This document shows positions 41,284-55,522 of a stretch of 64,000 bases of DNA, in pieces. Each line of letters starts with the position of its first letter. The first letter of the stretch is position 1. Source of the stretch: Vitreoscilla filiformis. GTDB lineage: Bacteria; Pseudomonadota; Gammaproteobacteria; Burkholderiales; Burkholderiaceae_C. The stretch is taken from positions 2,914,001 to 2,978,000 of the forward strand of contig NZ_CP022423.1 of NCBI RefSeq assembly GCF_002222655.1, read 5' to 3'. Under the pieces are notes generated by a model, which was not told where the DNA came from, made no database searches, and saw only the letters and a list, made by a program, of their open reading frames with translations. The position numbers were made by a program, and so were the translations under genes.

Positions 41284-42125
41284 TGATCCGTACCCGCTGG
41301 AGCGTGGGCTTCGCCGCCCTGATCATGCTGACCAGCAGCTGGCGACTGGGCCAAGCCGACGCCATCGAGTCACCCACCGTAGCCAGCGCGGTCAACGTGG
41401 CATCGGCCGCAGCGCATGCATCAACGCCAGCCGCGTCGGACAGCTTGCACGTCCCTGATGGCGCCCGCGCCGTTGAGCTGCACAGCCGCATCGTCACCCG
41501 CGATGCGACGGACAAGCGCGTCGCCCTCACGCTGGACGCCTGCGCCGGGCTGTACGACGCTGAACTGATCGATTTCCTCATCGCACAGCGCATCCCGGCG
41601 ACGATTTTTGCCACCAAACAGTGGCTGGATCACAACCCCACCGGCCGCGCCGTGCTGCGGGCGCATCCCGATCTGTTCGACATTGAAAACCACGGCGAGC
41701 ACCACATTCCAGCGGTGATCGGCAAAGGGCGCAAGGTGTACGGCATCGCCGGGGCTCCGGATGTGCTGCACCTGCGCCGCGAAGTGGAAAACGGCGCCCA
41801 GGCCGTCGAAGACATCACGGGCGAGCCCAGCCGCTGGTATCGCGCCGCCACTGCCCGATATGACGAGGATGCCGTCGAAGAAATTCAGCGCTTGGGCTAC
41901 CGCATTGCTGGTTTTTCTGTGAACGCGGATGCGGGCGCCACCCTGCCGCAAGCTGAAATCACCGCCCGGCTGAAACACGTTCAAGCTGGGGACATCATCC
42001 TGGCCCACATGAACAAACCGCGCTCCCAGACCGCCGAAGGGTTGCGCCCTGGGTTGCTGGCCTTACAGCAGCGCGGTTTTGTGTTTGTTCACCTGAACGA
42101 TGTGGCGGTTCAAACAACGCCCTGA
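41283..42125 (+). CDS. Polysaccharide deacetylase-family (NodB-like) exported protein
   Basis: A 280-residue protein with a hydrophobic N-terminal segment (about residues 8-18) that may be a signal peptide. The NodB-like motifs are VALTLDACAG (the second Asp of the usual TFDD is Ala) and NHGEHH with the metal-binding histidines, then RAATARYDEDAV and LAHMN. It would remove acetyl groups from an extracellular or cell-wall polysaccharide. The ATG overlaps the HTH gene's stop. The 3' end overlaps the convergent oxidoreductase gene by 16 bp. Confidence 0.82.
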   Translation: MIRTRWSVGFAALIMLTSSWRLGQADAIESPTVASAVNVASAAAHASTPAASDSLHVPDGARAVELHSRIVTRDATDKRVALTLDACAGLYDAELIDFLIAQRIPATIFATKQWLDHNPTGRAVLRAHPDLFDIENHGEHHIPAVIGKGRKVYGIAGAPDVLHLRREVENGAQAVEDITGEPSRWYRAATARYDEDAVEEIQRLGYRIAGFSVNADAGATLPQAEITARLKHVQAGDIILAHMNKPRSQTAEGLRPGLLALQQRGFVFVHLNDVAVQTTP

Positions 42126-45100
42126 TCGGCGCGGAGCTGCTGCCAACGCGCCAACAGCTCGTCACGCCGCCGCTGCGCCGCCTGCATCGCCGCTGCCTTG
42201 ACGGGGCCGAAACCCCGCACGCTCTGCGGCAACTTGGCCAGCGCCAGCGCGGTGCTGACGTTGGCCGCCGTCAGCCCTTGCGCGAGTTGGCGGGCGAGCT
42301 GCTCGAAGTCGGCCAACGCGGCGTGTTCCTCACGGCGTTCGGCGCTGTAGCCGAACACATCGAACACCGTGCTGCGCAGCCGGCGCCCTTGGGCCAGCCA
42401 GCGCATCGCCGGCAGCAACCACGCGCCAAAACGCTGCTTGGCAGGCCGTTCGGCGCTGCCTTGCGCCTCGCTCATGCCACCCCGGCCCCCGCGCCACGGC
42501 GGCACCAGATGAAAGTGGAGCTGGTAATCGCCCTCAAACTGCGCTGCGATGCGGGCCTGAAACTCCGGGCTGCTGAGCTGGCGTGCCACCTCGTATTCAT
42601 CCTTCACCGCCATGAGTTTGTAGAGGCTCACCGCCACCTCGCGGGTGAAGCGGTCGCTGCCGATGCGTTCCCGCTCCAGCGCGGCGATCTCTTGCACGAA
42701 CTGCTCATAACGTCGAGCGTAAGCCGCGTCTTGGTAAGCGGTGAGGCGCGGCAGGCGGTCGGCCAAGAGATCGGCCAGCGCCGGGGTGCGCTCCGGCAAC
42801 AGGATGACGGATTCGCGCACCGGCCCATGCGCCAACTCGGACGGCATGCGCCCCGCCACCGCTTCCACCTTGCCCACATCCAACGCCGCTTGACGGCCCC
42901 AGGCAAACGCCGCCCGGTTCATCGCCACCGACGCGCCGTTGAGCTCAATCGCCCATTCCAGCGAGGCCAGCCGCAACGGCAGCCAGCCTTTTTGCCAAGC
43001 GAACCCCAGCACAAACACGTTCGTCGCCACCGCGTCGCCCAGTAAGGCGGTGGCCAGGTGAGTCGCGCCCAGCGCATGGGCTTCGGCCACGGCGCTGCGG
43101 GCGCGGGCCAGCAGGGCATCGGGCGAAGCTTGCCAATCCGGGTTTTGGGTGAAGGTGCCGGTGGGGGCCACATCGGTGTTGAGCACGGCGCGGGTGCGCT
43201 GTGCATCCATCCCAAGCAGCGCGGAGGCGCTGGCGCTCACCATCAAATCGCAGCCCAGCAGCACATCGGCTTGGTGATCGGGGACGCGGGCGGCGTGCAG
43301 CACGTCCGGGTTCGCCGCAATGCGCACATGCGACATCACCGCCCCGCCCTTTTGCGCCAAACCGGCCATGTCCAGCACCACCACGCCCTTGCCTTCGAGG
43401 TGCGCGGCCATGCCCAGCAGCGCGCCGATTGTCACCACGCCCGTGCCGCCCACGCCGGTGATGAGCACGTTCCAGGTGTGATCCAAAGTCGGCAGCGGCG
43501 GCTCTGGCAGCACGTCTTGCGGCAGGCCGGTGGCGCGGGGTTCAGGCTTGCGCAGTTGGCCGCCTTGCACCGTCACGAAACTCGGGCAAAAGCCCTTCAC
43601 GCACGAAAAATCTTGGTTGCACGCGCTTTGGTCGATGGCGCGCTTGCGCCCCAGCGGCGTTTCCACCGGCACGATGGCCACGCAGTTGCTCTGCACGCCG
43701 CAATCGCCGCAGCCTTCGCAGATGTCGGGGTGAATCACCGCCCGCTGCGCCAGCACCGGCATCAGCCCCTTTTTGCGCCGACGCCGTTTTTCCGCCGCAC
43801 ACGTTTGCACATACACGATGACGGAGACGCCCTTCAGCTCGCGCACGCGGCGTTGCAATGCGTCCATCGCATCGCGGTGCAGGATCTCCACCCCAGCGGG
43901 CAGGCCCGCTGCGCCGTGATGGGGCTGCGGATCGTCACTCACCAAAAAGAGCTGGGTGATGCCCTCGGCGGCGAGCTGTTGCAGCAGTTGCACCGGGGTG
44001 GGGGCGCCTTCGACCGGCTGGCCGCCCGTCATGGCGACTGCGTCGTTCACCAACAGTTTGTAGGTGACGTTGACCCCCGCCGCCCGTGCCGCCCGGATCG
44101 CCAACGAACCCGAGTGCATGTAGGTGCCATCGCCCAGGTTGATGAAACGATGCTTTTGCGCGGTGAAGGGCGCGTGGCCGATCCAGCTCACGCCCTCGCC
44201 GCCCATCTGGGTGAGGGTGGCGGTGCGCCGGTCCATCCACTGCACCATGTAATGGCAGCCAATGCCGGCGCTGGCCTGCGAGCCTTCGGGCACTTTTGTG
44301 CTGGTGTTGTGCGGACAACCGGCGCAAAAGTAGGGCACGCGCTGCGGCAGCGGCGCGGCGCCGTTGGCGGATGCGCTCGCCTTTTGGCACGGCGTCAGCC
44401 ACGCGCGCACCGACTCGGGCAGCGCCGCTTCGCCCAGCACCTTGGCCAAGCGCGAAGCGATGACGCTGGCGATCACCGCTGGCGTCAGCTCGCCATTGGG
44501 GGACAGCAAGATGCCATCGTGCGGCACCTTCACCCATTCGCCGGTTTCGTCGTACTTGCCGACGACACGCGGGCGGGCGCTGGCCGGCTCGTTGTAAAGA
44601 TGCTCTTTGATTTGGTATTCGAGCACCTGGCGTTTTTCTTCCACCACCAGGATTTCGTCCAACCCCTGCGCAAACTCGACCACACATTGCGGCTCCAGCG
44701 GCCACACCACGCCGATCTTCAACAAGCGCAGGCCGAGCACAGCGGCGGCGGCTTCGTCCAAGCCCAACATCACCAAGGCTTCGCGCACATCCAGGTAACT
44801 TTTTCCGGTGGTGCAGATGCCAAGCTTGGCGCTGGGCGCCGCCCAATCTTGCCGATTCAGGCCGTTCACGCGCACGTATTCGAGCAGGGCGTAGAGGCGT
44901 TCGCGTTGCAGGCGGTTTTCTTGCTGCAAGGGCGGATCGGGCCAGCGGATGTGAAAACCGTCCGGCGGAATCGGGTAACTGTCGGGGATGCGGATGTTGA
45001 CCGCCATCGGATCGACTTCCACCGAGGAGGAAGATTCGACCGTGTCGCTGATCGTTTTGAACCCCACCCAGCAGCCCGAGTAGCGCGACATGGCGTAACC

Positions 45101-45691
45101 GTGCAGCCCGAACTCGATGAACTCGCGCACGCCCGACGGGTGCAACACCGGGATCATGGCGGCGATGAAAGCGTGTTCGCTCTGATGCGGCAGGGTGCTG
45201 CTTTTGCAGGCGTGGTCGTCGCCCGCCACCAGCAACACGCCACCGTGTTCGGCACAGCCGGCGATGTTGCCGTGTTTGAACACGTCGCCTGAGCGATCCA
45301 CGCCCGGCCCCTTGCCGTACCAAAGCGAAAACACCCCTTGCACGGTGGCTTCGGGGTCGAGCGCCACCATTTGCGAGCCCCACACCGCCGTGGCGGCCAG
45401 CTCCTCGTTCAAGCCGGGGGTGAAGCGGATGTTGTGGGCGTCCAGGTGCTTTTTGGCGCGCCACATTTCTTGATCGACACCGCCCAGCGGCGAGCCGCGA
45501 TACCCAGAAACGAAGCCGCCGGTGTGGAGGCCCGCGGCCTCGTCACGCGCCTTTTGCGCCAGCAGCAGGCGCACCAGGGCTTGGGTGCCGGTGAGGTACA
45601 CGCGGCCAGTGGCTTGGGTGTATTTGTCGTCCAGCGTGACCCGGGTCAACTGGGGAGGAAGCGTCGGAAGGACGGGGGGCATCGTGCTCAT
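42110..45691 (-). CDS. Fused indolepyruvate ferredoxin oxidoreductase (alpha-beta type)
   Basis: A 1193-residue single-chain 2-oxoacid oxidoreductase. The N-terminal third is a pyrimidine-binding pyruvate oxidoreductase-like domain (GFVSGYRGSPLGGVD near residues 58-72). A TPP-binding region follows (FCAGCPHNTSTKVPEG, GDGTYMHSG). A ferredoxin-like cysteine cluster (CEGCGDCGVQSNC and CNQDFSCVKGFCP) and a gamma-type catalytic domain (GVGGTGVVTIGALLGMAA) complete it. Such enzymes oxidatively decarboxylate aryl or branched 2-oxoacids to acyl-CoA. The TetR regulator gene lies 142 bp upstream on the same strand, which links it with leucine catabolism by context. Confidence 0.93.
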   Translation of the reverse strand: MSTMPPVLPTLPPQLTRVTLDDKYTQATGRVYLTGTQALVRLLLAQKARDEAAGLHTGGFVSGYRGSPLGGVDQEMWRAKKHLDAHNIRFTPGLNEELAATAVWGSQMVALDPEATVQGVFSLWYGKGPGVDRSGDVFKHGNIAGCAEHGGVLLVAGDDHACKSSTLPHQSEHAFIAAMIPVLHPSGVREFIEFGLHGYAMSRYSGCWVGFKTISDTVESSSSVEVDPMAVNIRIPDSYPIPPDGFHIRWPDPPLQQENRLQRERLYALLEYVRVNGLNRQDWAAPSAKLGICTTGKSYLDVREALVMLGLDEAAAAVLGLRLLKIGVVWPLEPQCVVEFAQGLDEILVVEEKRQVLEYQIKEHLYNEPASARPRVVGKYDETGEWVKVPHDGILLSPNGELTPAVIASVIASRLAKVLGEAALPESVRAWLTPCQKASASANGAAPLPQRVPYFCAGCPHNTSTKVPEGSQASAGIGCHYMVQWMDRRTATLTQMGGEGVSWIGHAPFTAQKHRFINLGDGTYMHSGSLAIRAARAAGVNVTYKLLVNDAVAMTGGQPVEGAPTPVQLLQQLAAEGITQLFLVSDDPQPHHGAAGLPAGVEILHRDAMDALQRRVRELKGVSVIVYVQTCAAEKRRRRKKGLMPVLAQRAVIHPDICEGCGDCGVQSNCVAIVPVETPLGRKRAIDQSACNQDFSCVKGFCPSFVTVQGGQLRKPEPRATGLPQDVLPEPPLPTLDHTWNVLITGVGGTGVVTIGALLGMAAHLEGKGVVVLDMAGLAQKGGAVMSHVRIAANPDVLHAARVPDHQADVLLGCDLMVSASASALLGMDAQRTRAVLNTDVAPTGTFTQNPDWQASPDALLARARSAVAEAHALGATHLATALLGDAVATNVFVLGFAWQKGWLPLRLASLEWAIELNGASVAMNRAAFAWGRQAALDVGKVEAVAGRMPSELAHGPVRESVILLPERTPALADLLADRLPRLTAYQDAAYARRYEQFVQEIAALERERIGSDRFTREVAVSLYKLMAVKDEYEVARQLSSPEFQARIAAQFEGDYQLHFHLVPPWRGGRGGMSEAQGSAERPAKQRFGAWLLPAMRWLAQGRRLRSTVFDVFGYSAERREEHAALADFEQLARQLAQGLTAANVSTALALAKLPQSVRGFGPVKAAAMQAAQRRRDELLARWQQLRADQGVV

Positions 45692-45833: not shown

Positions 45834-46568
45834 CTATTCGGGTTTGTGCGGGGGTGAAACATTCGCCAACGCCTCAGCCACCTGCCCGCGCAGGCGACGC
45901 AACGCCAGCAACTCCGCATCGGGCACCGCCACGGCGGCCCAGAGCAAGGCCACCATGTCGGCGGCGCGTTGCTCGATGTCGATCTGGTGTTGCAGCCCCA
46001 CGGCCTCCCACAACAAATGCTCCATCGGCCCGAGGATGAGGGCGCGCAGCAAGCGCAGCGGCACATCGGCGCGGATTTCACCGCTGGCTTGGCCACGCGC
46101 CAGCACGTCCATCAGCGGCGCGGTGTAGCGGCGTTGCAGCGGCAAAAAACTCTCGCCCAAATCCTGGCCCTTGGCGCGACCTTCGGAAAGCACCAGCGCA
46201 CACAAGCCCGTGCCCTGCTGCAAAAACAAGCGCAAATGCGTGGCGATGAAAAAGCGCAACTGCTCACGGATGGGCGCCTCACGCGGCATGCCCTGCTCCA
46301 CCACGGCGATGATTTCGTCGTACCAATCGTTGATGACGCGCACGCACAGCTCACGCTTGCCCCGGAAGTAGGTGAACACCGTGGCTTCGCTGATGCCCAG
46401 GCGCTGCGCCATCTCGCCGGTGGTGGCGCGCTCGTAGCCCTTTTCGGCGAAGACCTCGCGGGCCACTTTGAGGATGCCTTGAATGCGCTGCTCGCTGCGG
46501 GCGCTGGCGGCGCTGCGGCGGGTGCTCAGCGTCGCTGCCGACGGGCTAGAGGGTTCGGGTGCTTGCAT
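45834..46568 (-). CDS. TetR-family repressor, probable regulator of the ivd-mcc operon
   Basis: A 244-residue TetR protein. The helix-turn-helix reads REVFAEKGYERATTGEMAQRLGISEATVFTYFRGKREL near residues 37-74. ATG 46568 is chosen because the 15-bp inverted repeat TTGAGTTTCACTCAA lies only 3 bp upstream of it, and the same spacing and half-sites recur upstream of ivd at 49681. The alternative start at 46598 would place that repeat inside the coding region. TetR regulators of leucine degradation (LiuQ type) are known in betaproteobacteria; this is a good candidate, but identity is inferred. Confidence 0.88.
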   Translation of the reverse strand: MQAPEPSSPSAATLSTRRSAASARSEQRIQGILKVAREVFAEKGYERATTGEMAQRLGISEATVFTYFRGKRELCVRVINDWYDEIIAVVEQGMPREAPIREQLRFFIATHLRLFLQQGTGLCALVLSEGRAKGQDLGESFLPLQRRYTAPLMDVLARGQASGEIRADVPLRLLRALILGPMEHLLWEAVGLQHQIDIEQRAADMVALLWAAVAVPDAELLALRRLRGQVAEALANVSPPHKPE

Positions 46569-46571
46569 GGG

Positions 46572-46586
46572 TTGAGTTTCACTCAA
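46572..46586. promoter_or_regulatory. Operator candidate TTGAG-N5-CTCAA upstream of the TetR gene
   Basis: A perfect 5-5-5 inverted repeat ending 3 bp upstream of the TetR start, suited to autorepression. It overlaps the stop codon of the vapC gene. The same half-sites and spacing occur at 49681-49695 before ivd. Confidence 0.75.
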
Positions 46587-46960
46587 TATGCATGCCAACC
46601 TCTCATCACCGACAACAACCCCGCATCGAACGTCAGCAACTCCAACCCGTTGTGCAGGGCGGTGGCAGCAATGAGCGCGTCCGGCAGCTTGATGCGGCGC
46701 TGGCGGCGCAAGGCAATGGCCTGGTCTTCAATTTCCCGGGTGATCGGCAAATAGACGAAGTGCGCCAACCTGAAACGGATCACAGCGTCCTCATTGGCCA
46801 TGATGCCCGCAAAGCCCAGCAGTTCCATGCGTGTCACCGCGCTGTAGGCGCACTCATGGGCTTGCATGTTGCGCAGCGTCGCCATCTCTACGATGTCGGG
46901 CGCGGACTTGAGCAGACCCAGCACAAAGTTGGTGTCCAGCAGGTATTTGACGCCGATCAT
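46583..46960 (-). CDS. vapC: PIN-domain toxin (VapC)
   Basis: A 125-residue PIN RNase. The acidic residues are in LLDTNFVLGLL near the N-terminus, MELLGF, the IKLPDALIAATAL helix and LLTFD near the end, so the active site looks intact. VapC toxins cut tRNA or rRNA. ATG 46960 is used; ATG 46981, inside the antitoxin gene, is possible. Its stop lies inside the operator of the downstream TetR gene, which therefore lacks a promoter region of its own. Confidence 0.85.
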   Translation of the reverse strand: MIGVKYLLDTNFVLGLLKSAPDIVEMATLRNMQAHECAYSAVTRMELLGFAGIMANEDAVIRFRLAHFVYLPITREIEDQAIALRRQRRIKLPDALIAATALHNGLELLTFDAGLLSVMRGWHAY

Positions 46961-46967
46961 CGCCCGC

Positions 46968-47219
46968 TCATTGCCACTCATCACGCAACTGGCGTTGCAG
47001 TGCGACGGCATCCCCGGCAAAAGTCGCTGAAGCCTCCAACCCCCCCTGCAAATCCGCCAACGACACCGCCGGCTGACACGTCAGGGACGCATGCGGCTGG
47101 GCTGCTTGCTGTTTCTGGTGCTTGAGCCGCACAAACTCAGCGAAATCCAGCACCTCGGCCAACAAAGGCTCAGGTAGCGCCTGGGTTGCAGCCCAGAGTT
47201 TTTCCACGGTGGTTGACAT
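46968..47219 (-). CDS. vapB: VapB-type antitoxin (DUF2281-like)
   Basis: An 83-residue protein. The N-terminal STTVEKLWAATQALPEPLLAEVLDFAEFVRLK matches DUF2281 antitoxins, and the disordered acidic C-terminus should wrap the toxin. It is translationally coupled to the PIN toxin. A near-palindrome at 47286-47304 is a possible autoregulatory site. Confidence 0.82.
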   Translation of the reverse strand: MSTTVEKLWAATQALPEPLLAEVLDFAEFVRLKHQKQQAAQPHASLTCQPAVSLADLQGGLEASATFAGDAVALQRQLRDEWQ

Positions 47220-47285
47220 GACGCGGCTCCTCAAACTGAGCCGGTTGGCTCACCTGACAAGGATACAGAAGGGTGTCCCACCGGC

Positions 47286-47304
47286 AATTCAGTTGAACTC
47301 AATT
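47286..47304. promoter_or_regulatory. Near-perfect palindrome upstream of vapBC
   Basis: AATTCAGTTGAACTCAATT is symmetrical except for one pair and the centre base. It lies about 66 bp upstream of the antitoxin start, in a 213-bp gap between two toxin-antitoxin-type pairs that shows no other gene. Confidence 0.4.
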
Positions 47305-47432
47305 CTTCAGCAGAACATCGAACGCGGTTATGTGGCGTTGCAGGCTGGCGCCTCTGCTGAATCGACTAAGTGACACAACAGGAACGCGGGTGACCTGGGG
47401 CCATGTCATCGCTGGCGTGTTGTCCCCTCACC

Positions 47433-47900
47433 TCAACCCACCACCGCCAGCTTGCGCGGGCGTCCGCCTTTGAGGCCATTGGCGCGGGCGGCCTGCACTT
47501 TGGCATGGCTGCTGCGGCTGCCATTGCGCGCCGCCACCACAGTGGAGGCCAAGGCCATCAGCGGCTGACTGGCTTGCACCAGGCCGGCGATGCTGATGTG
47601 CAAATCGCGCTCGTCTAGGCACAGGGCGCTGCCACCAAACCCCAGCGTCAGTTGGGCCAGCTCGGTGGCAGACAGAGCCGCCAACTCCGGGTAGTTTTTC
47701 ACCGGCAGCGCCACGGCGCTTTGGTCGGCAAACCCGATGAGCAAAGACGCAAACGCGGGCAGGTGGTGCAGCGTGGTGGCGTGCAGGCCAGGGCTTTTGC
47801 GCTGGCGAGCACGCTCGGTGGCCTTGGCCAAAACGGTGGGGGTGATCGGTTCATCAAACCGGTCTTGCGCCTTCAGGGGCTTGGGGGTAGGCGTGTTCAC
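47433..47900 (-). CDS. DUF2442-domain protein
   Basis: A 155-residue protein. The DUF2442-like core is LTLGFGGSALCLDERDLHISIAGLV, near residues 84-108. A basic C-terminal tail follows (RNGSRSSHAKVQAARANGLKGGRPRK) that could bind nucleic acid. GTG 47900 overlaps the stop of the DUF4160 gene (GTGA). DUF4160/DUF2442 neighbours occur widely as small mobile pairs with a suspected toxin-antitoxin role. Confidence 0.72.
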   Translation of the reverse strand: MNTPTPKPLKAQDRFDEPITPTVLAKATERARQRKSPGLHATTLHHLPAFASLLIGFADQSAVALPVKNYPELAALSATELAQLTLGFGGSALCLDERDLHISIAGLVQASQPLMALASTVVAARNGSRSSHAKVQAARANGLKGGRPRKLAVVG

Positions 47901-48325
47901 AGTTCAATCTCCAGCGGGTAGGGCTGCCCTGTCAGGTGCAGCACGGTTTTGTTGGCCAGTGGATCAAAACGCGCGGATTGAATGGGCACCGTGCCAAAGC
48001 GGCGCAATTGAGGGCTAACCGCTTCCTCGGCCACCGCGTCCCAGTGTTGGCGCTCCAGGCACAGCGTGCCACGGCTGCGCCACCACAGCGTTCGGGCTCG
48101 GTGCAACACCTGGGACTGTTTGAGCACTTGGCGTAAGGCTTCCAGCACGGCGGCATTCGGCTCGTTTTGTGCGGGTGACACATCCCACAAACGCACGCCG
48201 TTGTGCCAGAAGCTGAACTCAAACCGGGCATCCCATGCGGGTGTGCCGGCGTGAACGTGGGGCGGGCAGTGTTCATTGCGGGTCAGCACCGCCACCTGCA
48301 CACCCTTGTGGCTGCACACTTTCAT
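47897..48325 (-). CDS. DUF4160-like protein paired with DUF2442
   Basis: A 142-residue protein. The N-terminal NEHCPPHVHAGTPAWDARFEF carries the DUF4160 hallmark CPPHVH. The rest (residues about 45-142) is longer than usual for DUF4160 and has no recognised domain. It is coupled to the DUF2442 gene by overlapping codons. It resembles the known pair of small proteins, so a toxin-antitoxin-type function is plausible. Confidence 0.72.
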   Translation of the reverse strand: MKVCSHKGVQVAVLTRNEHCPPHVHAGTPAWDARFEFSFWHNGVRLWDVSPAQNEPNAAVLEALRQVLKQSQVLHRARTLWWRSRGTLCLERQHWDAVAEEAVSPQLRRFGTVPIQSARFDPLANKTVLHLTGQPYPLEIEL

Positions 48326-48372
48326 GGATAAACCAAGCCGTTGGGTTTATTGATTGTAAGGGGGCTTCGGCT

Positions 48373-48762
48373 TCAGTGCCACCCGTCTCCCGGCGCGTAG
48401 CTCACGCCAAACCGCCCGGCCAACGCAGCCAAGCGCTTGTCCAGCGTCCATAAAACGGCCCCCGGCGTCAGCAGCGTCGAGGCCAGCAGCACCAACTCCA
48501 CCACACCACAACCCAGGCCGTAGAGCCGCTCGCGCTCCACAAAAGCCAGGACTTCGGTCAGGCTGGCTTGGCGCACCGGGGGCAGCAGCCCCAAATCAGC
48601 CAGCGTGCGCGCACGCGGTTCAGGTGGGGTGCCACAGGCCAGCTCGGCTTGCACCAGCGGGTGCATCAGCGCGCCATCCAGCGCCAGCAGGCGCACCAGC
48701 TCGGCATTGCACTGACGAAAGTGCGCCACCCACACCGAGGTGTCGATGAGCACCCCCGTCAC
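48373..48762 (-). CDS. vapC: PIN-domain toxin (VapC), second pair
   Basis: A 129-residue PIN protein: DTSVWVAHF at the start, [11 protein letters not shown] in the middle, [13 protein letters not shown] and WTLDKRL near the end. The third acidic position reads GVVEL where many VapC proteins have D. Activity is likely but not certain. GTG 48762 overlaps the antitoxin stop (GTGA). Confidence 0.82.
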
Positions 48763-48962
48763 GCCACCGGCTCCTGGCGCTGGCGTGGTACTTCCGCCAT
48801 GTTCGGCTGTGTGCCCCCCAGCGCAGCCAGCCGTTTGGCAGCCTGCACCCGCACAAAGGTTTTGATGGCCTCGCGGAACAAATCCGCCTTGTCCATGCCC
48901 GGGTCGGCCATTTCCAGGGCGCGTTCATACAGGGCATCTTCAATCGTCACGGTGGTTCGCAT
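48759..48962 (-). CDS. vapB: VapB-type antitoxin, second pair
   Basis: A 67-residue protein with a ribbon-helix-helix start [18 protein letters not shown] typical of DUF2191/VapB antitoxins, and an [22 protein letters not shown] helix after it. AAGG precedes ATG 48962 by about 7 nt, which favours it over ATG 48968. It is divergent from the Uma2 gene across 78 bp. Confidence 0.85.
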
Positions 48963-49040
48963 GGACATCCTTGCATCAAAAGTGATGGAATCATGGGCAA
49001 ATATCAGCATCAAAACAAGCCGCACCGCTAGGAGCACCGC

Positions 49041-49601
49041 ATGGGACTACCCGCCTCCAATGTCTATATGACCCCCGACGAATACCTCGCCTGGGAAGCC
49101 ACCCAAACCGAACGCCACGAGTACATCAACGGTGAACCCTATGCGATGGCCGGCGCTGAAGACCGGCACATCACCGTCTGCGGCAACCTTTATATGGCCC
49201 TGCGCCAACACCTGGCCGGCTCCCCCTGCCGTACCTACATGGCCGACATGAAGCTCCAGGTGGATGCCAGCGCCTGCTACTTCTACCCCGATGTGCTGGT
49301 GACATGCAGCGAGGCCGACCGCGCCAGCCCTCACACCAAACGTGAGCCGCTGCTGCTGGTGGAAGTGCTCTCCCCCAGCACCGCCACGTTTGACCAAGGG
49401 GGCAAGTTCGCCCACTACCGCCAGTTGCCCAGCCTGAAGGAATACGCGCTGGTGGACTTGGCCCGCCGCTGCTGCGATGTGTACCGCAAGGGCGCCGACG
49501 GCCTGTGGGTGCTGCACCCTTTTGAGCCGCCGCAGGGCGTGACGCTGGCCAGCGTGGACGTGAGCCTCCCGCCTGAGCAGCTTTGGGCCGAGGTGGATTG
49601 A
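49041..49601 (+). CDS. Uma2 family (DUF820) PD-(D/E)XK nuclease-like protein
   Basis: A 186-residue protein with the Uma2 order: [36 protein letters not shown] (active-site Asp), [11 protein letters not shown] (Glu) and [14 protein letters not shown] (lysine follows). Uma2 proteins have the restriction-endonuclease fold and are abundant in genomes rich in toxin-antitoxin genes; their role is uncertain. It is the last member of the block between the TetR gene and ivd. Confidence 0.86.
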
Positions 49602-49680
49602 GGGTTGAAGGGAAATCACTGAGCAAAGTTCAATAAACAAGGCTTGATTCGGCTTTTGTGGCTTGCTAATCTGATGAGAA

Positions 49681-49695
49681 TTGAGGTTTACTCAA
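49681..49695. promoter_or_regulatory. Operator candidate TTGAG-N5-CTCAA upstream of ivd
   Basis: TTGAGGTTTACTCAA, 24 bp upstream of the ivd start. Its half-sites and spacing match the repeat before the TetR gene (46572-46586), and the inner base before the right half is A in both. It is the likely binding site of that TetR protein. Confidence 0.75.
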
Positions 49696-49719
49696 ATTTT
49701 CCCAACGGAGACCCGCCCG

Positions 49720-50892
49720 ATGTTCGAATCCACCTTCACTTTCCCCTTGGGCGAGGACATCGCCGCGCTGCGCGATGCCGTCCGCACCTTCGCTCAGGCC
49801 GAGATCGCCCCGCGTGCCGCGCAGATCGACCGCGACAACCTCTTCCCCGCCGACCTCTGGCGCAAGCTGGGTGAGATGGGCGTGCATGGCCTGACGGTGC
49901 CGGAAGAATTGGGCGGCACGAACATGGGTTACGTCGCCCACATGGTGGCGATGGAGGAAATCAGCCGCGCCAGCGCGTCGGTGGGGCTGTCGTACGGCGC
50001 GCATTCCAATTTGTGCGTCAACCAAATCCGCCGCAACGGCACCGATGCCCAGCGCCAGCGTTATCTGCCCAAACTCATCAGCGGTGAGCACATCGGCGCT
50101 TTGGCCATGAGCGAACCCGGCGCCGGTTCGGACGTGGTGAGCATGACCCTGCGCGCCGAAAAGAAGGGCGACCGTTACGTGCTGAACGGCTCGAAGATGT
50201 GGATCACCAACGGCGGCGATGCCGACACGCTGGTGGTCTATGCCAAAACCTCGCCTGAACTCGGCGCCAAGGGCATGACGGCTTTCATCATCGAAAAAGG
50301 TTTTGCCGGTTTCAGCCACGGCCAGCACCTGGACAAGCTCGGGATGCGCGGCTCCAACACCTACCCGCTGTTCTTTGACAACTGCGAGGTGCCCGAAGAC
50401 AACGTGCTGGGCGGCGTGGGCAACGGCGTCAAGGTGCTGATGAGCGGGCTGGATTACGAGCGCGTGGTGCTCTCCGGCGGGCCGCTGGGCATCATGGCGG
50501 CGTGCATGGATGTGGTGGTGCCTTACGTCCACGAGCGCAAGCAGTTCGGCCAGAGCATCGGTGAGTTCCAGCTCATGCAGGGCAAGTTGGCGGACATGTA
50601 TTCCACCTTCCAAGCCTGCCGCGCCTACGCCTACGCCGTGGCCCAAGCCTGCGACCGGGGCGACCACGCCCGCACGCTGCGCAAGGATGCTGCCGGCGTC
50701 ATCCTCTACACCGCCGAGAAGGCGACGTGGATGGCCGGCGAGGCCATTCAAACCCTGGGCGGCGTGGGCTACACCAACGAGTACCCCACGGGCCGGCTGT
50801 GGCGCGATGCCAAGCTGTATGAAATCGGCGCGGGCACGAGTGAGATTCGCCGCATGTTGATTGGCCGCGAACTGTTTTCGGAGACGGCATGA
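49720..50892 (+). CDS. ivd: Isovaleryl-CoA dehydrogenase
   Basis: A 390-residue acyl-CoA dehydrogenase. The segment [16 protein letters not shown] matches isovaleryl-CoA dehydrogenases, where this Glu is the catalytic base in an unusual position. FAD-binding pieces [13 protein letters not shown] and KMWITNGG, and the end [19 protein letters not shown], are intact. It oxidises isovaleryl-CoA from leucine to 3-methylcrotonyl-CoA. ATG 49720 follows an AACGGAGA sequence. Its stop overlaps the mccB start (ATGA). Confidence 0.94.
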
Positions 50893-53353: not shown

Positions 53354-55522
53354 ATGTTCAAGAAAATTCTGATCGCCAACCGGGGCGAGATCGCCTGCCG
53401 CGTGGCCGCCACCGCCCGCCGTTTGGGCGTGTCCACCGTCGCCGTGTATTCCGATGCGGACGCGCACGCCCAGCACGTTGTGGCCTGCGACGAAGCGGTG
53501 CCGCTGGGTGGCCTGTCCGCGCAAGACAGCTATTTGCGCTGGGAGCGCATCCTGGCCGCCGCGCAAGCCACCGGCGCCGAAGCGATTCACCCCGGCTACG
53601 GTTTTTTGAGCGAGAACGAAGCCTTCGCCCGCGCTTGCGCCGAGGCCGGCCTCGTGTTCATCGGCCCGCCGCCCGGCGCCATTGCCGCCATGGGCAGCAA
53701 AGCCGCCGCCAAGGCGCTGATGAGCCAAGCCGGCGTGCCGCTGGTGCCGGGTTACCACGGCGAGAACAACGACCCCGCGTTTTTACTGGGCGAGGCACAG
53801 CGCATCGGCTTCCCGGTGCTCATCAAGGCCAGCGCGGGCGGCGGTGGGCGCGGGATGCGGCGAGTGGATCGGGCGGAGGACTTCCTCGCCGCGCTCGCCT
53901 CCTGTCAGCGCGAGGCGCAGGCGAGTTTCGGTTCGGCGCATGTGCTGGTGGAGCGCTACGTCACCCGGCCGCGCCACATCGAAATTCAGGTGTTTGCCGA
54001 TGGGCGGGGGAACTGCATCCACCTGGGTGAGCGCGATTGCTCGGTGCAGCGTCGCCACCAAAAAGTGCTGGAAGAAGCGCCCGCGCCCGGCCTGAGCGCC
54101 GAGTTGCGCGCCGAAATGGGTGCGGCTGCGGTGGCGGCAGCGCGGGCCGTGGGCTACGTCGGCGCCGGCACGGTGGAGTTCATCGCCGAGCAGCCGGAAG
54201 GCGAAGCCTTGCGCTTCTATTTCATGGAGATGAACACCCGGCTTCAGGTGGAGCACCCCGTCACCGAGGCCATCACCGGGTTCGATCTGGTGGCGTGGCA
54301 ATTGCGCGTGGCCTCAGGCGAAGCGCTGCCAGTGACGCAAGATGCCGTGCGCCTCACCGGCCACGCCATCGAAGCCCGCATCTGCGCCGAGAACCCGGAC
54401 GCGGGTTTTCTGCCCGCCACCGGCACCCTGAGCGTGCTGCGCTGGCCGGCGCATGTGCGCTTTGTGCGCAACGCCGAGCAACTCGCCCACCTGCCGCCCG
54501 CTGCGGTGCGCGTGGACGCCGGCGTGGTGGAAGGCGACGCCATCAGCCCGCATTACGACTCGATGGTGGCCAAGCTCATCGTCTGGGGCGAAGACCGCGA
54601 ACAGGCGCTGGCCCGGCTGGCGGCAGCGCTGCGCGAGACGCACATCGTTGGGCTGAACACCAACGTGGCGTTTTTGCGCCGGGTGGTGGCCTCGCGCTCG
54701 TTTGCCGGGGCGGATTTGGATACGGCGCTGATCGAGCGGGAACGGGCGGCGTTGTTTGAGGCGCCGGGGGTGTCGGCGGAGCTGGCGGCGGCGGGGTTGA
54801 TCGCCCACACGCTGGCGACGGAAGCGCGCCAACAAGCCGCCGATCCGTGGACGCGCCGCGATGGCTGGCGCTTGCACGGTGTGGCGCGGCGGCGGTTCGA
54901 CTTGGTGCAGGGCGATGTGCGCTGGCAGGTTTATTTGGAGCGTGGGGCAGCGGCGGCCCCCTCTCCCCAACCCCTCTCCCACGAGGGGAGAGGGGCTTTG
55001 AGTGGCGCGCAGGGGGTTGCGCCAGGCACCCCAGGCATCCCAAGCGCCCCGGTTTTGCCCCCTCTCCCCTCGTGGGAGAGGGCTGGGGAGAGGGGGAAAC
55101 CGCGCCTGCACCTCCACCTCCCCGATGGCCGCCACCTGCCCTTCCAAGCCGAAGACCTGGGCGCCGAACGCTTCGCCCTGACGTTGGCCGGGCAGCGCCA
55201 CACCGTCAGCGTGCATCGTGCGGGTGACAAGGTGACGGTGTTCGCCGAAGCCGGCCTGGCCGAGCTGCGCGAGTTTGACGCCCTAGCTCACGCTGGCGAT
55301 GGCGCCCACGCAGGTGGCCTCACCGCCCCCATGCCGGGCAAGGTGCTGGCCTACTTGGTGGCCGAAGGCGACACGGTGGCAGCCGGCCAGCCCGTGGCGG
55401 TGATGGAAGCCATGAAAATGGAGCACACCCTGAGCGCCCCACGCGCTGGTACGGTGGCCGAGTTGCGTTTTGGTGTGGGCCAACAAGTCAGCGAGGGCGC
55501 CGAATTGCTGACTTTGGAGTGA
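53354..55522 (+). CDS. mccA: 3-Methylcrotonyl-CoA carboxylase alpha (biotin carboxylase/BCCP) subunit with REP insertion
   Basis: A 722-residue protein. The biotin carboxylase domain (about 1-450) has ILIANRGEIACRV, KASAGGGGRGMR (ATP loop), EMNTRLQVEHPVTE and FLPATG. The biotin-carrier domain at the C-terminus has the biotinylation motif EAMKMEH. It is some 50 residues longer than usual because a REP-like element (54957-55096) is translated in frame between the middle and carrier domains, giving a Pro/Gly/Ser-rich linker with PSPQPLSHEGRG and LPSWERAGERG. Both catalytic ends look intact, so the enzyme probably still works. Confidence 0.95.
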   Translation: MFKKILIANRGEIACRVAATARRLGVSTVAVYSDADAHAQHVVACDEAVPLGGLSAQDSYLRWERILAAAQATGAEAIHPGYGFLSENEAFARACAEAGLVFIGPPPGAIAAMGSKAAAKALMSQAGVPLVPGYHGENNDPAFLLGEAQRIGFPVLIKASAGGGGRGMRRVDRAEDFLAALASCQREAQASFGSAHVLVERYVTRPRHIEIQVFADGRGNCIHLGERDCSVQRRHQKVLEEAPAPGLSAELRAEMGAAAVAAARAVGYVGAGTVEFIAEQPEGEALRFYFMEMNTRLQVEHPVTEAITGFDLVAWQLRVASGEALPVTQDAVRLTGHAIEARICAENPDAGFLPATGTLSVLRWPAHVRFVRNAEQLAHLPPAAVRVDAGVVEGDAISPHYDSMVAKLIVWGEDREQALARLAAALRETHIVGLNTNVAFLRRVVASRSFAGADLDTALIERERAALFEAPGVSAELAAAGLIAHTLATEARQQAADPWTRRDGWRLHGVARRRFDLVQGDVRWQVYLERGAAAAPSPQPLSHEGRGALSGAQGVAPGTPGIPSAPVLPPLPSWERAGERGKPRLHLHLPDGRHLPFQAEDLGAERFALTLAGQRHTVSVHRAGDKVTVFAEAGLAELREFDALAHAGDGAHAGGLTAPMPGKVLAYLVAEGDTVAAGQPVAVMEAMKMEHTLSAPRAGTVAELRFGVGQQVSEGAELLTLE
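54957..55096. repeat. REP/BIME-like inverted repeat inserted in frame in mccA
   Basis: A 140-bp element with 39-bp arms (54957-54995 and 55058-55096) that are near-perfect reverse complements, each also able to fold on itself. The ends match the element between pqqB and pqqC (19285-19388); the centre differs. It leaves the reading frame open and keeps the downstream carrier domain in frame. Confidence 0.92.

Follow-up and report, generated by a model that had tools for sequence, protein, structure and literature searches.

A stretch of 64,000 nucleotides from Vitreoscilla filiformis (contig NZ_CP022423.1, positions 2,914,001 to 2,978,000; hereafter the window, whose numbering is used throughout) contains a TetR-family regulator gene, tetR, and the divergent ivd-mcc operon of leucine degradation, with a block of toxin-antitoxin-type genes of about 3 kb between them. 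The first gene of the operon is called ivd (isovaleryl-CoA dehydrogenase) by its context. A first-pass annotation of this DNA had placed a perfect inverted repeat just ahead of each of the two divergent starts, and its placement is correct: the repeats lie 3 nucleotides (nt) ahead of the tetR ATG (46568) and 24 nt ahead of the ivd ATG (49720). The first of them also contains the stop codon of the toxin gene vapC1 (46583-46585), as described there. The features of the regulator and its presumed target are listed below; the scores come from the operator matrix introduced further on.

45834..46568, minus strand: tetR, TetR-family regulator of putative LiuQ type, 244 amino acids (Pfam TetR_N, 4.7e-14).
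46572..46586: operator O1, TTGAGTTTCACTCAA, 3 nt ahead of the tetR ATG; matrix score 25.9, window rank 2.
47288..47302: operator-like site O3, TTCAGTTGAACTCAA, one mismatch, abutting the putative vapBC1 -35 element; score 17.5, window rank 3.
49619..49633: operator-like site O1', CTGAGCAAAGTTCAA, two mismatches, beside the ivd promoter; score 13.4, window rank 4.
49644..49672, plus strand: ivd promoter, TTGATT-17-TAATCT, recognized with a promoter pattern widened to admit TAATCT.
49681..49695: operator O2, TTGAGGTTTACTCAA, 8 nt past the ivd -10 element; score 29.9, window rank 1.
49720..50892, plus strand: ivd, acyl-CoA dehydrogenase gene, first of the operon (Pfam acyl-CoA dehydrogenase domains).

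O1 and O2 had been described as identical to each other. Both are indeed perfect TTGAG/CTCAA inverted repeats with common arms, but their spacers read TTTCA and GTTTA, respectively, and 13 of the 15 bases agree. The 15 bases of O2 recur unchanged in one locus of a relative (L021). The perfect pattern TTGAG-N5-CTCAA occurs just three times in the 3.79 Mb of the genome (three contigs), and because two of these occurrences are O1 and O2, the pair is beyond chance. The third (C1:1687366) is inside the start of a transporter-like open reading frame (ORF), as judged by eye, and was taken as chance. Genome-wide, TTGAGTNNNACTCAA is matched with at most one mismatch at four places, and three of these lie inside the 3.1-kb tetR-ivd interval. 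The same palindromes are found in the tetR-ivd gap of the same-genus relatives, with two perfect copies in 13 of 15 and one in the remaining two. Looser searches gave no excess in the window (23 matches to TTGAG-N5-CTCAA at up to two mismatches; 17.9 expected); in the whole genome, the shorter pattern at up to one mismatch gave 52 matches versus 44 for the reversed pattern, and TTGAGTNNNACTCAA at up to two mismatches gave 28 places versus 73. As there is no genome-wide excess of sites, the regulon of the TetR protein is probably small. The last count would also suit a regulator that acts on something else and whose place beside ivd is historical. We regard this as highly improbable, since in different genera the palindromes accompany tetR together with ivd or mccB, and a TetR-type LiuQ is recorded in betaproteobacteria (PMC5343134).

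The relatives compared were 15 same-genus genomes and the best 80 of 119 further loci, ten of which repeat same-genus loci. In all 15 same-genus genomes, tetR adjoins ivd divergently, with 149-262 bp between the aligned ends, and their ivd is 86-92.5% identical to that of V. filiformis. Because these relatives have tetR next to ivd without the block in 15 of 15 cases, about 3.0 kb entered this lineage, in line with the earlier suggestion that the block had invaded a control region. Among the best 80 further loci, ivd is adjacent to tetR in 46 and mccB in 22, ivd follows after 1.8-2.6 kb in seven, and five show another or a cut arrangement. The seven wider gaps, from Cupriavidus (six) and Sphaerotilus (one), were considered as foreign blocks and excluded: each holds one long gene in the direction of ivd, an acyl-CoA ligase by eye, which evidently belongs to the same operon. 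None of the seven block proteins matched the 96 loci L005-L100 (E <=1e-6), of which the first 16 reach only ~1.5 kb on either side of tetR.

At E <=1e-30, the TetR protein matched all 15 other same-genus genomes (63-71% identity), one of eight genomes from other genera of the family, and none of 16 from other families of the order; a genus-wide search returned the identical 15 genomes plus its own. The best NCBIfam model was the FadR-type NF053878 (71.5 bits, below the 200-bit cut-off), no NCBIfam equivalog cut-off was reached, and the best solved structures by sequence were 1vi0 and 3whb (5.7e-16). LiuQ is described in PMC5343134, which cites Kazakov et al. 2009, as a TetR-family regulator that governs the use of branched-chain amino acids in betaproteobacteria and is found in no other of the groups studied. 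By sequence, the TetR protein fits LiuQ and hence a known kind of regulator: it belongs to the TetR family, its neighbors are genes of leucine or branched-chain degradation (ivd or mccB adjoins in 68 of the 80 loci), and palindromes precede both regulator and target (score of at least 12 in 84 of 86 loci, with a matrix built from those same perfect sites). We take most of the best 80 loci to belong to Burkholderiales genera. One of them, L047 (Plasticicumulans), is from a gammaproteobacterium; here tetR is codirectional with ivd, and sites scoring 21.0 and 28.8, both strong, stand elsewhere in the locus, ~800-900 bp downstream of the aligned start of tetR. L047 shows the same system in rearranged form. 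The proposal that the TetR protein represses the ivd-mcc operon is probable, given that the palindromes are conserved beside tetR and that 55 of 86 non-redundant relative loci have a perfect-arm site.

The operator matrix was derived from 67 distinct sites with perfect arms, all of them taken from relatives and none from the V. filiformis genome, and was run across the window. O2, O1, O3, and O1' took the first four ranks, and the fifth position scored 5.2. A looser matrix with one-mismatch sites added returned the same four in the order 49681, 46572, 49619 (17.8), and 47288 (15.4). With both matrices, all four sites fall within the tetR-ivd interval. The Markov expectation per 3.1 kb (8 Mb simulated) is 0.0008 at a score of 17.4 and 0.005 at 13.4, and the DNA of the relatives outside the tetR gap (1.05 Mb) holds four sites of at least 13.4, of which the rearranged locus L047 accounts for two. 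Among the 86 non-redundant loci, 55 of which supplied the matrix so that the counts are partly by construction, exactly two sites with a score of at least 12 were present in 63, one in 19, three in two, and none in two. Shuffle tests compared the ivd region with the DNA upstream of vapB1 (minus strand 31, reached by 1 of 1000 shuffles; plus strand 22, 105 of 1000) and with the O1 region of tetR (plus 23, 17 of 1000; minus 16, 567 of 1000). The O3 region may thus be an inverted copy of the O2 region placed before vapBC1, an idea that is only suggestive because the operator itself supplies much of the score of 31.

The first-pass annotation pictured two ancestral operators simply parted by the block. 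This picture is not quite right, as the ivd side has the operator-like O1' as well as O2, with a promoter between them. TTGATT begins at 49644, 25 nt from the start of the site at 49619; a 17-nt spacer, TAATCT, and 8 nt then lead to the site at 49681. In nine of the 15 same-genus genomes, the ivd promoter is TTGNNN-17-TAGATT, and the first operator begins 22 nt before its -35 element; over the 14 of 19 loci in which a promoter was recognized, this distance is 20-24 nt. O1' occupies the position of the first operator of the relatives, and locus L058 shares the compact form, with the promoter 9 nt ahead of the second operator. The ivd promoter spacing is as in the relatives. The block thus seems not to interrupt the operator-promoter-operator region at ivd, which looks complete. 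With O1' and O2 both on the ivd side, O1 at tetR appears to be a further copy.

The block itself consists of the following features.

46583..46981 (alternative start 46960), minus strand: vapC1, PIN-domain toxin gene (Pfam PIN, 1.3e-16).
46968..47219, minus strand: vapB1, DUF2281 antitoxin-like gene (Pfam DUF2281, 6.2e-9).
47237..47252: perfect palindrome TGAGCC-N4-GGCTCA in the vapB1 leader, a candidate self-regulation site of VapBC1.
47260..47287, minus strand: putative vapBC1 promoter, TTGCCG-16-TATCCT, read by eye.
47433..47900, minus strand: DUF2442 gene (Pfam DUF2442, 1.4e-9).
47897..48325, minus strand: DUF4160-like gene, with no Pfam hit; a DUF2442-DUF4160 pair on a Polaromonas plasmid aligns.
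48373..48762, minus strand: vapC2, PIN-domain toxin gene (Pfam PIN, 2.3e-5).
48759..48962 (alternative start 48968), minus strand: vapB2, antitoxin-like gene (VapB_antitoxin, 5.9e-5).
49041..49601, plus strand: uma2-family gene, running toward ivd (Pfam Uma2, 2.6e-35; PADLOC PDC-S03, 2.4e-24).

A PIN toxin gene with a neighboring antitoxin gene was found in both vapBC1 and vapBC2, the model score of vapB2 (scanned one codon longer) being just below the cut-off (23.3 versus 23.4 bits). vapBC1, the DUF2442 and DUF4160-like genes, and vapBC2 are on the minus strand and uma2 is on the plus strand; thus, all block genes run outward. The DUF2442-DUF4160 pair has a counterpart beside a tyrosine recombinase on the Polaromonas plasmid (66.5% DNA identity), and vapBC2 resembles modules on Pseudomonas and Variovorax plasmids, among others; the block parts are at 65-67% DNA identity. 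Block-like DNA was found in 46 plasmid records in total, none of which spans 80% of the block. Positions 47402-47432 are the left half of a multicopy intergenic repeat with five other places in the genome (88-100% identical). This repeat was considered as the entry point and set aside: only half of the longer repeat is present, as it breaks off where the DUF2442 gene starts, and it marks an inner seam rather than an edge. Given the separate plasmid-like modules and this seam, the block is most simply read as a mosaic of unrelated modules assembled in steps. The G+C content of its genes (0.60-0.67) is near that of the window (0.65), so composition is no strong sign of origin. An integron or transposon origin was not adopted, as none of the seven annotated block proteins is an integrase or transposase (neither the other overlapping ORFs nor attC sites were part of this search). 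Rfam reported nothing above its thresholds at 46400-49800.

One of 298 other family genomes sampled had a match to vapC1 (38% identity, E 1e-10), two of 369 class genomes, including its own, had one at E 1e-22, viral contigs had none, and the 22 plasmid records with matches were all below 60% identity. VapC1 ends in SVMRGWHAY, and the tails were variable in the 22 homologues examined (of 262 matches): 20 lack the WHAY tail, P0001 (99% identical) has it, and P0092 has GWHE near the end. That the last codons of vapC1 are of host origin is only suggestive, because the tails of the homologues vary widely.

Three further observations concern this DNA and its surroundings. The only match of a consensus promoter scan at 46400-49800 was at 48353-48382 (minus strand, GTGGCA-18-TACAAT; 0.4 expected), upstream of the DUF4160-like gene. 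Two more regions of the genome resemble the uma2 gene of the block, L116 (C1:3032062-3032562, 72% DNA identity) and L117 (C1:868076-868440, 65%). In the ORF at 53354-55522, a biotin carboxylase-like subunit gene, the segment SPQPLSHEGRG ... LPSWERAGERG (~54900-55060) looks by eye like an in-frame translated palindromic intergenic repeat.

The tetR side differs from that of the relatives. In eight of the 15 same-genus genomes, a tetR promoter TTGNNN-18-NATACT has its -10 element within the first operator, and the start codon a few bases past it suggests a leaderless tetR message. This pattern was not found for tetR in V. filiformis, where the -10 position reads GAAACT and the place of the -35 element is the end of vapC1. 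Both divergent promoter patterns are present in eight same-genus relatives (L005, L006, L007, L010, L014, L016, L017, and L019), and in these both -35 elements sit in one short inverted repeat, as seen by eye. tetR begins 14 nt beyond the vapC1 stop codon, and no terminator was predicted between them. From this arrangement, the repressor is most likely supplied by read-through from vapBC1. Downstream of tetR, an indolepyruvate ferredoxin oxidoreductase family gene (42110-45691) has the same direction, and tetR read-through might reach there.

Here, we propose an explanation of the locus, to which we give a probability of roughly 70%. It starts from what is directly seen, namely, the gene order, the sites and their ranking, the uninterrupted relatives, and the absence of the tetR promoter pattern of the relatives. 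The TetR protein would be a repressor of LiuQ type, with TTGAGT-N3-ACTCAA palindromes as its binding sites and the divergent ivd-mcc operon as its target. In the relatives, the first operator would overlap the tetR promoter and start, and the second would lie near the ivd start. A mosaic of toxin-antitoxin-type genes of ~3 kb then probably inserted between tetR and the control region of ivd. On the ivd side, O1', the promoter, and O2 would have been kept, leaving ivd control intact in cis, and the repressor, acting at O1' and O2, may keep ivd-mcc switched off until it is released by an intermediate of the pathway. That the ligand is an acyl-CoA is a guess, based on the closest named models, the FadR-type regulators. 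On the tetR side, the operator would have been kept and the own promoter lost, with tetR now the third gene after vapB1 and vapC1 and expressed by read-through. If O3 is bound, the repressor would also close the vapBC1 promoter, and self-control would be restored by a new route; if not, its level would follow the self-control of vapBC1 at the palindrome 47237-47252. Binding, read-through, control through O3, and the ligand are predictions from the sequence. A more far-reaching version, in which the metabolic circuit captured the toxin-antitoxin module as a vapB1-vapC1-tetR operon whose repressor shuts its own promoter via O3, with operators copied at the block edges on entry, is tentative and rather doubtful. 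In such a case, branched-chain breakdown would set toxin-antitoxin transcription, and toxin-antitoxin self-control would set the repressor level.

Several observations weigh against the proposed repressor circuit. As to the operator-like sites, the looser matrix puts the fifth site of the window at 12.0, near the fourth (15.4). In the background of the genome itself, where selected loci were scored, L142 reaches 17.8, above O3, and L103, L143, L130, and L137 reach 15.0, 14.3, 14.1, and 14.0 as a set, above O1'. L142 (C1:1817542) lies within a cytidylyltransferase-like ORF (by eye), L103 lies beside lipoprotein-like ORFs, and both were taken as chance. The center of O3 is G, where 96% of the letters in the sites of the relatives are A or T. 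With these background scores and the atypical center, O3 and O1' are therefore each probable, not proven, operator sites of the TetR protein. They may instead be chance matches or sites of other proteins (VapBC1 in the case of O3), leaving only O1 and O2 as real operators. The two mismatches of O1' agree with this possibility, which we consider unlikely though worth keeping in mind, as both sites outrank every position of the window except the two perfect ones and O1' sits where the relatives have their first operator. Moreover, VapBC1 has a separate perfect palindrome, and no O3-like site was present within 700 bp upstream in any of the four vapC1 homologue loci tested (fewest mismatches, 4-5). 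Because none of the four has a site with fewer than four mismatches, O3 is not general to this vapC family.

The remaining difficulties lie with the promoters. The ivd promoter pattern was not found in six of the 15 same-genus relatives, and the consensus scan of 46400-49800 reported neither the ivd nor the vapBC1 promoter. No good ribosome-binding site was seen by eye ahead of tetR. The suggestion of the first-pass annotation that tetR is now driven from the vapBC1 promoter is made likely by the missing pattern when set against eight of the 15 relatives, but it is weakened by the other seven, in which the pattern was also not found. The missing pattern with its altered -10 element, the lack of a clear ribosome-binding site, and the degenerate O1' (13.4) are likewise compatible with a neutral insertion, after which tetR, without a promoter, would be hardly expressed, the ivd operon would be constitutive, and the operators would be relics. 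Such an outcome is improbable, as tetR is intact and shares 63-71% identity with its orthologues in the genus, O1 and O2 retain perfect arms, and there are more operator-like sites here than in the relatives (two in 63 of 86 loci), not fewer.

The locus can be compared with several known systems. It resembles LiuQ (PMC5343134) in the TetR family, the position beside leucine-degradation genes, and the conserved palindromes in a shared control region; it differs in the toxin-antitoxin block that parts regulator and target, in the missing tetR promoter pattern, and in its four operator-like sites. The best model and structures by sequence (NF053878, 1vi0, and 3whb) are those of FadR-type TetR regulators, which act in fatty-acid metabolism, whereas the 200-bit cut-off of the model is missed and the neighbors here belong to leucine degradation. 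As in VapBC type II modules, antitoxin and PIN genes form two pairs whose reading frames overlap; unlike in them, the stop codon of vapC1 is part of a metabolic operator, a host repressor gene follows 14 nt after the module, and an operator-like site of that repressor abuts the putative vapBC1 promoter. The liu operons of Cupriavidus (six) and Sphaerotilus (one) are alike in that the ivd match starts 1.8-2.6 kb from tetR, but the gene in their gap, by eye an acyl-CoA ligase, evidently belongs to their own operon and is no foreign block. A toxin-antitoxin block that splits regulator from target, together with a lost tetR promoter and added operator-like sites, appears to be new; no report of such an arrangement was found in the portions of the open-licence literature that the search covered.

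Together with the 15 uninterrupted same-genus relatives, the V. filiformis locus shows the control region of a regulator and its target before and after the entry of a toxin-antitoxin block. If tetR truly runs off vapBC1, loss of the block would mean loss of repressor expression. If true, this would be a simple route for a toxin-antitoxin module to become chromosomally fixed, with its expression tied to metabolism.

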